From Moraxellaceae bacterium (lineage in GTDB: Bacteria > Pseudomonadota > Gammaproteobacteria > Pseudomonadales > Moraxellaceae): 64,000 bases of DNA. The stretch spans positions 62,001-126,000 of the forward strand of contig JAUSND010000002.1 of NCBI GenBank assembly GCA_030646295.1, written 5' to 3'. Positions 30,228-34,845 of the stretch are shown here, in pieces. The notes under the pieces were generated by a model. That model was not told the DNA's origin. It ran no database searches and was given only the letters and a program-made list of their open reading frames with translations. The number at the start of each line of letters is the position of its first letter. Position 1 is the stretch's first letter. The position numbers were made by a program, and so were the translations under genes.

Positions 30228-32167
30228 GCCGTCACATCACTCATGCTGTCAATCATCGCAAAAAACTCCCGTACCTCATCCAGTGAGCGCGTGCGCCGCA
30301 TCGGCGGCAGACTTTGCAGAAAGAGCTGGCCATAGGGACGGCCAACCAGACGAGGATCACAGACCATGAGCACACCCGTATCCGTCTCGTCACGAATCAG
30401 GCGGCCCGCACCCTGCTTCATGGCAATAATGGCACCAGGCAACTGATAGCTCACAAACGGATTCCGGCCCCGCGCCTTGTAGGCATCTATACGCGCAGCA
30501 ATCACCGGCTCGCCAGGTGAGGCAAATGGCAACTTGTCGATAATCACGCAGGACAATGCCTCACCACGTACATCCACACCTTCCCAGAAGCTGCCGGTCC
30601 CCAGCAGGACACCATTGCCATGCTCCCTGAAGCGCTTCAGCAACTCTGCCTTGGCCATGGTGCCCTGCACAAACAACGGATACTCAAGACGTCCGCGATA
30701 CCACTCTGCCGCTTCCTTCAATGCACGATGGCTGGTGAACAGAACAAACGCGCGACCCCGGCTTGCCTGTAAAACCGGCAGGCTGGCTTCAAGTACCGAC
30801 TGTGTATAACGGGGGTCACTGGTGTCCGGCAAGCCTCGCGGCACATAGAAAAGCGCCTGCTTTTCATAGGAGAACGGACTGGGCAGCTGCATGGTCTCCA
30901 GATCATTCAGGCCCAGCTGCCCGGAAAAATGCCGGAAGTCCTCATGCACCGCCAGTGTCGCCGAGGTAAACACCCAGGCAGCCTTGCGGCCGGACACCAT
31001 GTCACGAAACGGCTTGGCCACATCCAGCGGGGTCCACTGCAGGACAAAACCTTTCTTGAATGTCTCGAACCAGTGCACCTGGTTTTCCGGCGTATTACCG
31101 GTGAGCTTCTCAAACTGAACGATCAGGTCTTCGGCACGACGATGGGCATTTTCCAGACCCTTGCTGCGCGCACTGGCCGCGTCGAGACAGGCAGAAAGAT
31201 GTGCCAGTGCCAGTCTCACACCCTCAATCCCTGCCGGCATTTTTTCCAGACCGGAAACCTCTGACCAGATGCCTTTCCTCGCGTCATCACCAAAGACCAG
31301 TCGCATATCGGCGACACGATTCTCCAGCTGCGTCGACGCATCCAGAATGGAGCGCATTTCACCGGCTGCCTGCAGCATTTCACCCACGGCATCCTGGGCC
31401 AGTTCCAGCAACTGCCGCGAGGAAATGCTTTCGCCAAAGAACATGGATGCCACTTCAGGCAGCTGGTGGGCTTCATCAAAGATAATGGCCGTGGCATCCG
31501 GCAGGAGCTCACCAAAACCTTCTTCCTTGATGGCAATATCAGCAAAAAACAGGTGATGGTTGACCACCACCAGATCCGCCTCACTGGCTTTCTTGCGCGC
31601 ACGCGCCAGTGGGCATTCCTCAATCAGGGGGCATTCCTGTCCCAGACAATTGTCGGCCGTACTGGTTACCAAAGGCCAGACACTCGCATCCTCAGGCAGA
31701 TCACTCAGCTCGGCGATATCCCCACTGTTGCTCGTGGGCGCCCACTCGGCTACCCGCTGCAACTCATGCACCGTCTGCTTGCTGGCAAAACGGCCATCCT
31801 CCAGATGAATCTGCAAGCGATAGGGACAAAGATAATTGGCTCGTCCCTTCAAAAGGGCCGTGCGTACCGAAACCCCCATTGCCGCCAGAATGGTGGGAAG
31901 GTCACGATGAAAAAGTTGATCCTGGAGATTACGGGTGCCCGTGGAAACAATGACTTTCTCACCGGACAGAAGTGCAGGAGCAAGATAGGCGTAGGTTTTA
32001 CCGGTACCGGTACCTGCCTCAACCATCAGTACACGTTTTTCGCGGACAGCCTCAGCAACGGCATCACTCATGGCCAACTGCGAGTCACGCGGCCGAAAGC
32101 CGGCAATATGTCCGGCAAGCCGCCCCTCTTTGCCCAGAATGGCAAGGCTGTTGAAACGGTCCGTCAT
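30224..32167 (-). CDS. yoaA: DinG-family iron-sulfur DNA helicase, YoaA-like
   Basis: 647 residues. Walker A is EAGTGTGKT, near residue 55; the DEAH box is in IIFDEAHQLPEVA. Between them four cysteines (one in YLCPYRLQ and three in CLGQECPLIEEC) match the [4Fe-4S] cluster of XPD/DinG helicases. Late motifs include GSFWEGVDVRGE and the QGAGRLIR motif VI. It unwinds DNA 5' to 3' and is linked to repair or replication restart in E. coli. It is the first gene of the yoaA-tsaB-thioesterase-uppP-rsmJ operon. Confidence 0.93.
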   Translation of the reverse strand: MTDRFNSLAILGKEGRLAGHIAGFRPRDSQLAMSDAVAEAVREKRVLMVEAGTGTGKTYAYLAPALLSGEKVIVSTGTRNLQDQLFHRDLPTILAAMGVSVRTALLKGRANYLCPYRLQIHLEDGRFASKQTVHELQRVAEWAPTSNSGDIAELSDLPEDASVWPLVTSTADNCLGQECPLIEECPLARARKKASEADLVVVNHHLFFADIAIKEEGFGELLPDATAIIFDEAHQLPEVASMFFGESISSRQLLELAQDAVGEMLQAAGEMRSILDASTQLENRVADMRLVFGDDARKGIWSEVSGLEKMPAGIEGVRLALAHLSACLDAASARSKGLENAHRRAEDLIVQFEKLTGNTPENQVHWFETFKKGFVLQWTPLDVAKPFRDMVSGRKAAWVFTSATLAVHEDFRHFSGQLGLNDLETMQLPSPFSYEKQALFYVPRGLPDTSDPRYTQSVLEASLPVLQASRGRAFVLFTSHRALKEAAEWYRGRLEYPLFVQGTMAKAELLKRFREHGNGVLLGTGSFWEGVDVRGEALSCVIIDKLPFASPGEPVIAARIDAYKARGRNPFVSYQLPGAIIAMKQGAGRLIRDETDTGVLMVCDPRLVGRPYGQLFLQSLPPMRRTRSLDEVREFFAMIDSMSDVTA

Positions 32168-32272
32168 GGAGTCTTGGTCTGAATGGAAACGAGCATTCTA
32201 ACCGTTCACGGTCAGTGTGGCATTCCCGTTCAGCCCTCGGCCGGGATTCGTTCTCTCATTCCGTTACCCCAT

Positions 32273-32301
32273 AAAAAAACCCCGCCGAAGCGGGGTTTTT
32301 T
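32273..32301. terminator. Terminator downstream of the AlgP-like gene
   Basis: Stem CCCCGC/GCGGGG (32280-32285, 32290-32295) with CGAA tetraloop, A-run before and T-run after. It works for the minus-strand histone-like gene and could act in both directions. Confidence 0.92.
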
Positions 32302-32306
32302 CAACC

Positions 32307-33116
32307 TCAGGCCTGAGGAGCAGCGGCCTTGGGTGGACGACCGCGACGCGAAGCAGCAGGCTTGCGTGCAGCAGGCTTCTTCGCAGCAGGCTTGCGAGCA
32401 ACCGGCTTCTTTGCAGCAGCTGGCTTGGCAGCCGGCTTCTTCGCAGCAGCTGGCTTGCGTGCAGCAGGCTTCTTCGCAGCAGCTGGTTTCTTGGCAGCAG
32501 GCTTGCGAGCCGGCTTGCGTGCTGGCTTGGCAGCAGCGGCAGCCTTCTTGGCAGCACGCTTGGCCAGTGCAGCAGCCTTGCGGGCAACAGCACGCTCGGC
32601 AGCCTTGGCAGCAGCAGCTTCTTTCTTGGCCATTGCCTTCATCTTGGCAGCAGCACTCTTCAGCGCAGCCTTCACCTTGGCAGCCACTTTCTTCTGAGCA
32701 GCCTTCACCTTGGTAGAATCAGCCTTGGCGATACGCTTTTCAGCAGCTTTCTTGGCACGCTCAACAGCAGCAGCACGCTTCTTCTCGAGCGCAGCAGCCA
32801 GTTTGGCTACGCGCGCATCGGCAGCGGCCTTCACCTTCTCAACGGCGGCATGCACCTTTGCCTTGGCCAGTGCAGCCTTGGCTGTACGGGCAGCGGCGCG
32901 AGCAGCCTTCACCTTTTCATTTGCTTTTGCTTTTGCAGCAGGGGTCTTGGCTGCTTTTGCAGCAGCAAGAGCTGCAGTCAGCGTAGCAGCAGCCTTGGAG
33001 GCAGCTTCTTGGGCCTTGGCGCCAGCAGCGGAGCTCACAGCAGGAGCAGCACGACGGACAGCAGGCTTACGAGCAGCCGGTTTTTTCGCAACAGCTTTTT
33101 TGGTGGTACGAGCCAT
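32307..33116 (-). CDS. AlgP-like, histone H1-like DNA-binding protein
   Basis: 269 residues composed largely of Ala and Lys with some Pro and Arg. The N-terminal part (about 1-30) and the C-terminal third (about 195-262) consist of short K-P-A-A / K-K-P-A-A units, while the middle (about 45-190) is an Ala/Lys helical region without Pro. The end carries the AT-hook-like core RRGRPPK. This matches AlgP (AlgR3) of Pseudomonas, a histone H1-like protein linked to alginate control. Function here is inferred from composition only. GGGAG lies eight bases before the start. The upstream DNA is strikingly AT-rich. Confidence 0.85.
   Translation of the reverse strand: MARTTKKAVAKKPAARKPAVRRAAPAVSSAAGAKAQEAASKAAATLTAALAAAKAAKTPAAKAKANEKVKAARAAARTAKAALAKAKVHAAVEKVKAAADARVAKLAAALEKKRAAAVERAKKAAEKRIAKADSTKVKAAQKKVAAKVKAALKSAAAKMKAMAKKEAAAAKAAERAVARKAAALAKRAAKKAAAAAKPARKPARKPAAKKPAAAKKPAARKPAAAKKPAAKPAAAKKPVARKPAAKKPAARKPAASRRGRPPKAAAPQA
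32349..32535. repeat. Short tandem repeats encoding the K-P-A-A tail
   Basis: Imperfect repetition of GCAGCAGGCTTCTTC and GCAGCTGGCTT units encodes the Lys-Pro-Ala-Ala tail. Such arrays commonly vary in copy number by slippage, so the protein length may differ between strains. Confidence 0.75.
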
Positions 33117-33646
33117 TGAAGGTTCTCCCTCTAAGTGTTTTTAAAAGCATTTTGCCTTACTACGTTTTAAAAAATAGCACAAAAAAAAAGCAGTTGGTAC
33201 AAATTACCAGCATTAACAATTGATTTTTGATGGTTTTTATTAAAAAAATCGCAAAAAAGTCATTTTCAGAGTCATTCAATGTCTCCGGAAATGCATTTCC
33301 GCTTAATTACGAGATTTGATCACGGGATTATTTTTCCTCATCCGGCAACCCTTCTGCATTCACCAAAGAGTGTGCGACGCGATTAATTACCGCCGTCACT
33401 GAATGCCAGAGAACCATTCAAGGACAATAAAACACCCGATATAAAGTTCCATCCTGGTTTCAGGAAAACCATTTCAAGCACTCACGCCGATAAATTCATT
33501 ATCAAGACCGCCGTGACACCTGCCCGATTTACAGCCCCCACAAAAACTGTCCATGCGTACAGGAAAATAACGGCATCGCATTACTGCACTGCACCTGAAC
33601 TGCCCCAAATAGCATCAGATCAAATAAAAGTGTTACTGCCAGAAAC
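33117..33646. other. AT-rich non-coding region upstream of the AlgP-like gene
   Basis: About 530 bases with no credible gene, much richer in A and T than its surroundings. The part nearest the histone-like gene (33138-33266) contains many A or T runs; those centred near 33226, 33236, 33245, 33255 and 33264 are spaced about one helical turn apart, which predicts intrinsic curvature. The remainder (33270-33640) is less extreme and shows no clear hairpin, promoter or tRNA. It probably holds the promoter region and leader of the AlgP-like gene; a small RNA cannot be excluded. Confidence 0.6.
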
Positions 33647-33675
33647 AAAAAGCCCCGGTTTATCCGGGGCTTTTT
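33647..33675 (-). terminator. Terminator of hemH
   Basis: Stem AGCCCCGG/CCGGGGCT (33651-33658, 33664-33671) with a five-base loop. On the minus strand it ends in TTTTTG just after hemH; a T-run also exists in the other direction. Confidence 0.92.
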
Positions 33676-33690
33676 AACAACACACGTGAA

Positions 33691-34701
33691 TCAGTTTGCC
33701 TGAAAGGCTTCCAGATGCGGGCGCACCAGTGCAGACATCAGGGCAATATGATCGGGACGTGTATTAAGCGCGGCAATGTACTCGTAGGCTTTCCCGCCTG
33801 CATGCAGGAACGCCTCGCAATTTTCCCCGGCAATTTCCTCGAGTGTCTCCAGGCAATCAGCAGAAAAGGCCGGGCAGACAACCTGCACCGATGCCGTCCC
33901 CTGCTTCGCCCATGACTCCAGCAATACATCCGTGTAGGGCTTGATCCACTCCTGCTTGCCAAATCGGGACTGGAAGCTGCAAGCCCAGGCATCGTCAGGC
34001 AGATTCAGGGCTGCAGCAACACGAACCGCCGTCTCACGGCAACGCTCAGGATAGGGATCACCCTTGTCGGCATACGGCTGGGGAATGCCATGAAAGGAAA
34101 ACAGCAGCTTTTCTGCAGAGCCGTTTTGCTGCCGGTGGGACTGGATCGAAACCGCAAGGGCAGCAATGTAGATCGGGTGCTTGTAGTAGTCCTTGATGAT
34201 CACAACCGAAGGCAGATTGCGCTGCGTCGCCTGCCAACGGGCAATTGCATCGTAAACCGGTGCCGTCGAGGTTGCCGAGAACTGGGGGAAAAGAGGCAGG
34301 ACAACAATCTGCTCCACTCCCTGCGCAAGCAATCCATCCATGGCGGAGGCCATCGACGGATTACCGTAACTCATGCCTGGCACAACAATCACGTCAACAG
34401 CAGGCATGGATGCCGTCAGCTGCTGCTGCAATTTGGCACATTGCTCTTTCAGTATCCGCCGCATCGGGGAATCACCCTCACGCTCCCAGATGGACTGATA
34501 CAGCTTTGCAACCCGCCCAGGCCTGAATGGCAGGATGAAGGCATTCAGAATGACCCACCACACCGGCCGAGGAATCTCTATCACTCGCGAGTCCGCCAGA
34601 AACTCGCGCAAAAAACGGCGTACGGCGGGAACAGTTGGCGCATCCGGCGTACCCAGATTGGCCAGCACAACTCCCAGACGGCGACGCACGGGCTCAGACA
34701 T
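33691..34701 (-). CDS. hemH: Ferrochelatase
   Basis: 336 residues from ATG 34701, which has GGAG eight bases upstream; a GTG nine bases earlier overlaps that site. N-terminal [12 protein letters not shown], the metal-site [17 protein letters not shown] and [16 protein letters not shown] are typical. It inserts Fe2+ into protoporphyrin IX, the last step of haem synthesis. No extra cysteines for an iron-sulfur cluster are seen at the C-terminus. The gene is monocistronic with its own terminator; adk lies upstream on the same strand behind another hairpin. Confidence 0.96.
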
Positions 34702-34845
34702 GAAAGACACTCCACCAGGTGATGTCCGGATTTAAGCAAATCCAGGCGCCGTCTAGAAGACGACAAGCAACAACCACTCACCACCAGCATGATGGTGAGA
34801 TAAAGCAATGTCACGGACGGAGCAAGGAACCTGACCGGCCACAAA

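Follow-up and report, generated by a model that had tools for sequence, protein, structure and literature searches.

The window analysed here is a 64,000-nucleotide stretch of the genome of a Moraxellaceae bacterium (assembly GCA_030646295.1, contig JAUSND010000002.1, positions 62,001 to 126,000 of the forward strand), a draft of 3.14 Mb in 27 contigs that is 97% complete. On its minus strand, a gene that we take from its sequence to be adk-like is followed by hemH (ferrochelatase, 33691-34710), a region of A/T tracts, the gene of a histone-like protein (32307..33116) and a YoaA-type helicase gene. hemH and the histone-like gene are separated by 574 intergenic bases (33117-33690), and positions 33100-33299 form an AT-rich island of 32% GC. 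Directly 3' of hemH lies a perfect 12-bp hairpin (AAAAAGCCCCGG/CCGGGGCTTTTT, 33647..33675, minus strand), which is probably the hemH transcription terminator, so that the histone-like gene probably requires a promoter of its own. Promoter and terminator scans of 32200-33800 returned no match each, the terminator scan missing the hairpin at 33647-33675, and an Rfam search of 32150-33800 was likewise without a match. Near-copies of the hairpin were seen at other sites of the host genome and in other genomes, and its sequence looks like a recurrent terminator. Opposite the histone-like gene runs a 300-aa open frame (32217-33119), probably a by-product of that gene's Lys/Ala-rich codons.

The histone-like gene encodes a Lys/Ala/Pro-rich protein of 269 aa, histone-H1-like by composition, with the C-terminus RRGRPPK. 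A sequence-only reading of this DNA had called the product AlgP-like with an AT-hook-like tail; the tail is real, and the AlgP likeness held for composition (a Lys/Pro/Ala repeat tail of AlgP type, recognised by eye) but not for the AlgP N-terminal model NF038178, which had no match in the genus (0 of 9 genomes) and one among 58 genomes overall (G056). AlgP itself is described as a protein of the nucleoid and of polyphosphate granules that carries KPAA repeats (PMC9239181). Against the histone-like protein, no Pfam or NCBIfam family scored over its cut-off, with Pfam HC2 (17.6 bits vs 40) and Extensin_1 (21.7 vs 105) both far under theirs. Among 49 genomes outside the genus, protein matches at E<=0.001 were found only in G012 and G027 (29% and 24% identity), in a search that scored at most 57 candidates per genome and may miss distant relatives of so low-complexity a protein; the promoter motif described below was not found in either genome.

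Genes downstream of hemH were inspected at 13 of 80 hemH loci. In G012 and G027, of a sister genus, the matching gene likewise follows a ferrochelatase-like gene, within 19 (L136) and 45 bases (L137), and encodes a charged protein of 225-227 aa (L136:1414-2091, L137:1324-2007) that has no basic KPAA-type tail. The H1-like protein may have derived by growth from such a protein. One of these sister-genus proteins matched the AlgP N-terminal model at E=0.012 (16 bits vs 100) and scored better to an unrelated radical-SAM family (19.9 bits vs 380), so the weak AlgP match may be coiled-coil noise.

The tract array consists of five A/T tracts at 33224..33266 (minus strand), with centres, read on the plus strand, at 33226 (T5), 33236 (T5), 33245 (A7), 33255.5 (A6) and 33264.5 (T4). 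Toward the gene follows a run of nine A at 33181..33189, which reads as nine T on the minus strand (T9) and falls within the promoter spacer; four turns (41 bp) separate its centre from the array tract closest to it. The sequence-only reading had placed the tracts and the nine A at these positions and had put their phasing at about 9-10.5 bases, and both claims were borne out. Spacings were 10, 9, 10.5 and 9 bp (mean 9.6 bp, below the helical repeat), the phase resultant of the array was 0.75 at 10.5 bp and 0.93 at 10.0 bp, and the best tract period in the window was 10.0 bp once the A9 tract was included.

Rarity was assessed in 464 kb of the host genome (~15%), comprising the window and 20 further stretches. 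A chain was defined as A/T runs of at least 4 spaced 8.5-11.5 bp apart, unless another spacing is given. The array was the one chain of at least five tracts in the 464 kb; none occurred in 5 block-shuffled copies, and a chain of at least five arose in 0.5% of 5000 dinucleotide shuffles of 33117-33290. With spacing widened to 8-13 bp it was still the sole chain of five, and with spacing tightened to 9.5-11.5 bp it dropped below four, because two of its intervals measure 9 bp. Other chains of four numbered one at 8.5-11.5 bp and one at the off-helix spacing of 12-15 bp; fours are therefore no sign of helical phasing, and it is the fifth tract that gives rarity. Runs of at least nine A or T occurred twice in the 464 kb. 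The other chain of four at 8.5-11.5 bp (L112:18374-18409) lies downstream of a miaA-like ORF and directly 5' of an ORF that is presumably hfq. When every tract between -165 and -20, counted from the ATG, was included, phasing at 10.5 bp was not significant in the window (p=0.08) and reached <0.05 in two of eight orthologues, because the tracts of the 5' UTR are then counted in.

Bending was predicted with Bolshoy and De Santis-type wedge values. With the De Santis-type wedges the array region ranked first in the 464 kb and exceeded dinucleotide shuffles at p<=0.01 in all eight orthologues. With the Bolshoy wedges it ranked 12, 13 and 10 for 60, 100 and 128 steps, at p=0.058 against shuffles in the window and <0.05 in two of eight orthologues. 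The DNA, made of runs of at least four that repeat near the helical repeat as bent A-tract DNA does, is thus predicted to curve, as had been claimed from the letters, and physical bending is likely, though dependent on the model.

The core promoter was read from conserved blocks on the minus strand. The block TTTGTACC (33196..33203) contains TTGTAC, with TTGTACC in seven of eight orthologues and TTCTACC in G008. Since 20 bp separate TTGTAC from the putative -10 (TATTTT), it is too distant for a normal -35. The nine-T tract is invariant in length (8/8) and is followed by a candidate extended -10, GTGC plus TATTTT at 33171..33180 (GTGY plus TANTTT in 8/8), and by GTAGTA at the expected start site (33158..33163, 8/8), 26-27 bases past the start of T9 and 46-49 bases before the ATG in every orthologue. 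Together, T9-GTGY-TANTTT and GTAGTA would form an extended -10 without a usable -35, plus a start region. A consensus scan for sigma-70 promoters over 32200-33800 gave no match: TTGACA-like and TATAAT-like hexamers 16-18 bp apart are lacking, and the putative -10, TANTTT, is poor.

All 58 genomes were searched with the pattern TTGTACC-N3-TGN-T9-GTG. Within the genus it occurred once per genome in eight of nine, G005 being without it, and the single match outside the genus (G049, from another family of the order, with two mismatches) was taken as chance; the pattern written backwards, used as a control, also matched once (G035). Relative to sigma-S promoters, the -10 region reads GCTA, then T, A or G, then TTT in seven of eight orthologues, with T at -13 in G008. 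The RpoS gene scored above its cut-offs (494.1 bits vs 394; 451.1 vs 378.7) in what we take to be a pcm-nlpD-rpoS neighbourhood. The C at -13, the absent -35 and the upstream curvature lead us to lean towards sigma-S over sigma-70. A sigma-54 promoter was rejected by eye, because G002 and G003 lack the GC and have TGG at that place, and an IHF-like site at 33213-33225, judged by eye, is not conserved.

A DNA search found the array and promoter region in every genome of the genus but one (8 of 9, the host included); the exception, G005, is 59% complete. In G004 the match spans the entire intergenic region, with 94% identity to the window over 641 bases, and in G001, G002, G003, G006, G007 and G008 it is limited to the array, the core promoter and the start of the gene. 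G007 gave an extra 40-base match over the hemH hairpin, and hairpin-like matches lay elsewhere in some genomes. The ~380 bp at 33267-33646 were matched in G004 only among the 58 genomes, short pieces apart, unlike the adjoining array. One further DNA match, in G022, had no histone-like gene beside it in the list of ORFs.

Relative to T9, the array tracts stand at about -37, -47, -56, -67 and -76. A chain of at least five tracts is present in seven of eight orthologues, so the phasing recurs in relatives, as the sequence-only reading had suggested checking; in the exception, G002, it is interrupted by a T3 and a 7.5-bp step at the tolerances used. One array tract consists of A in G003 but of T in all seven others. 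The near-duplicate G004 (L006) was omitted from the column count and from the identity, tract/spacer and period figures that follow. In the seven remaining lineages the array and core promoter form an indel-free block of 106 columns (33168..33273, minus strand), flanked by regions in which 17 of 51 columns upstream and 6 of 54 in the 5' UTR are gapped. Averaged over lineage pairs, identity rises from 0.40 upstream of the array to 0.59 within it and 0.80 in the core promoter, then falls to 0.66 in the 5' UTR and to 0.59 over the opening 120 coding bases.

Inside the array (55 columns), tract columns defined in one lineage were 89% identical among the six others, against 55% for the rest of the columns (average over seven such masks), a contrast internal to one alignment; A/T columns outside tracts were 56% identical under the same one-lineage masks. 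The difference was matched by 0 of 54 circular shifts for five masks and by 1 of 54 for two. A mask built from the rows being scored gave 92% vs 49.5%, a method that favours tract columns; the smaller contrast of the one-lineage masks is the figure relied on here, and it leaves the interpretation as it was. Across the seven lineages the mean phase resultant was 0.89 at 10.2 bp vs 0.47 in independent shuffles, which ignore relatedness (0 of 1000 shuffles), and in a scan of 6-16 bp with T9 included, each lineage had its best period at 10.0-10.2 bp. This is the pattern of a footprint: tracts and spacing are kept while the letters between them drift.

We consider it fairly likely that the array is an upstream bent-DNA (UP-like) part of the histone-like gene's own promoter, compensating for the missing -35. 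Five rigid A-tracts on roughly one helix face, continued in phase by T9 in the spacer, would bend the upstream DNA toward RNA polymerase and may offer their narrow minor grooves to the C-terminal domains of the alpha subunits; bend and alpha contact together would then make up for the absent -35 beside the extended -10. In this mechanism the core promoter, the start site, the physical bend, its direction, the alpha contact and the activating sign are all proposed. Points against it are that the array is less conserved overall than the core (0.59 vs 0.80), that the -10 is poor and the promoter scan empty, that G002 breaks the chain, and that neither the Bolshoy bend nor the whole-region phasing at 10.5 bp is significant in six of eight orthologues. 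Counted from the putative start site, the tracts lie at about -62, -72, -81, -92 and -101, and T9 at about -21. A classical UP element occupies -40 to -60, a segment that is not tract-rich here, and this too speaks against the reading.

Narrow-groove tracts might instead have been retained for a silencing protein. An H-NS-family protein nucleating at the array, and holding the histone-like gene low until relieved, is a less probable account, though the foremost of the alternatives. The host genome has one H-NS-family gene over the Pfam cut-off (58.2 bits vs 25.6), which carries GRGKSPRW, and the low GC of the island (32%, 33100-33299) also speaks for the H-NS-type control raised by the sequence-only reading; the same protein scores under the NCBIfam H-NS and StpA cut-offs. 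In full, the segment of this protein (L138:1258-1620) reads TWSGRGKSPRW, which presumably replaces the QGR-type loop of enterobacteria. A-tracts are reported generally to improve H-NS binding, but H-NS too is reported to prefer TpA steps (PMC4466236), which are few in the array. For E. coli, H-NS control has been reported with a putative curved region 5' of rcsA as its key element (PMC6070653). For silencing as such, neither exact phasing at 10 bp nor a T9 of fixed length would be required.

Self-binding, also proposed from the sequence, would have the histone-like protein act on its own tracts through the AT-hook-like tail and basic repeats. The RRGRPPK end makes this conceivable, and promoter motif and protein share their distribution in the genus (8 of 9 genomes). 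For basic repeats such as these, however, DNA binding of low sequence specificity is expected. RGRP is retained in six of eight orthologues, and G003 lacks the GRP core yet keeps the array, which makes that hook unnecessary for the array's persistence and weakens the idea; we regard such autoregulation as unlikely.

That the tracts are a functionless by-product of AT-rich intergenic DNA could draw on the strong AT richness, on the shuffles that do produce such a chain (the 0.5% above) and on the whole-region phasing of p=0.08 in the window, but the tracts are conserved over spacers and over non-tract A/T columns and their spacing is kept, and we hold this to be very improbable. Least credible of all is an MvaT-type silencer at the array, the other part of the earlier silencer proposal, which has the AT-rich region in its favour and is unsupported because the MvaT domain PF22055 was not found in the host genome (97% complete; it matches nine of 56 genomes of the order, seven over cut-off) and because MvaT is reported to prefer TpA steps and to be penalised by A-tracts (PMC4466236), while the array has rigid A-tracts and not several TpA steps but 0-3, against 5.0-8.2 expected from composition.

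The upstream bent-DNA reading can be set beside known systems, and as a bent-DNA promoter element the array probably belongs to a kind already known. Upstream A-tracts and UP elements of bacterial promoters have reportedly been treated by Aiyar (1998), Estrem (1998) and Bracco (1989); the likeness is in the phased A-tracts 5' of a core promoter, and the differences are that the array starts near -62 and not -40, that alpha contact is only proposed here, and that its pattern is traced across a genus. In Helicobacter pylori sabA, a T-tract near the core and A-boxes 10-11 nt apart upstream are described, with alpha contacts and curvature proposed (PMC4081817); the arrangement of T-tract and phased upstream A-tracts is shared, but the sabA T-tract is reported to vary in length and so tune expression, whereas here it is nine in 8/8 and lies within the spacer. 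A-tracts of IS5 are described as activating glpFK, with the alpha C-terminal domain reported, on a preliminary basis, as dispensable (PMC2753651). Curved RpoS promoters that lack a -35 are described with the -10 consensus KCTAYRCTTAA (PMC5650638). The present promoter resembles them in its predicted upstream curvature, its lack of a usable -35, the RpoS gene of its host and CTA at the -10 in seven of eight orthologues, and departs from the consensus after CTA.

Sigma-70 promoters of Campylobacter are reported to combine a periodic A/T pattern with an extended -10, as here, but in ~89% of the promoters of an AT-rich genome (PMC3656092), against the sole chain of five in 464 kb. In Synechocystis, helically phased A-tracts are described as in phase with the start site (PMC9825172); the likeness is that tracts are phased with the core promoter, and the difference is that the phasing is genome-wide there and confined to a single promoter here. 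The literature searched, by titles and abstract openings, yielded no description of the present promoter.

A bolder and unlikely proposal is that the promoter is read mainly by shape, with phased A-tracts and a fixed T9 replacing the -35, the letters between tracts free to drift, and the gene's own H1-like product or H-NS competing with polymerase for the narrow grooves, which would make a shape-sensing autoregulatory loop. The published cases of phased A-tracts that were found are single promoters, constructs or genome-wide patterns (PMC4081817, PMC2753651, PMC3656092, PMC9825172). The present case is one promoter in a little-known genus with a clean comparative footprint, its tract positions fixed and its spacers drifting. 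The natural orthologues therefore offer a way to tell the part of DNA shape from that of sequence in how the promoter works, and these eight variants could bear on whether curvature can replace a -35 and favours sigma-S.
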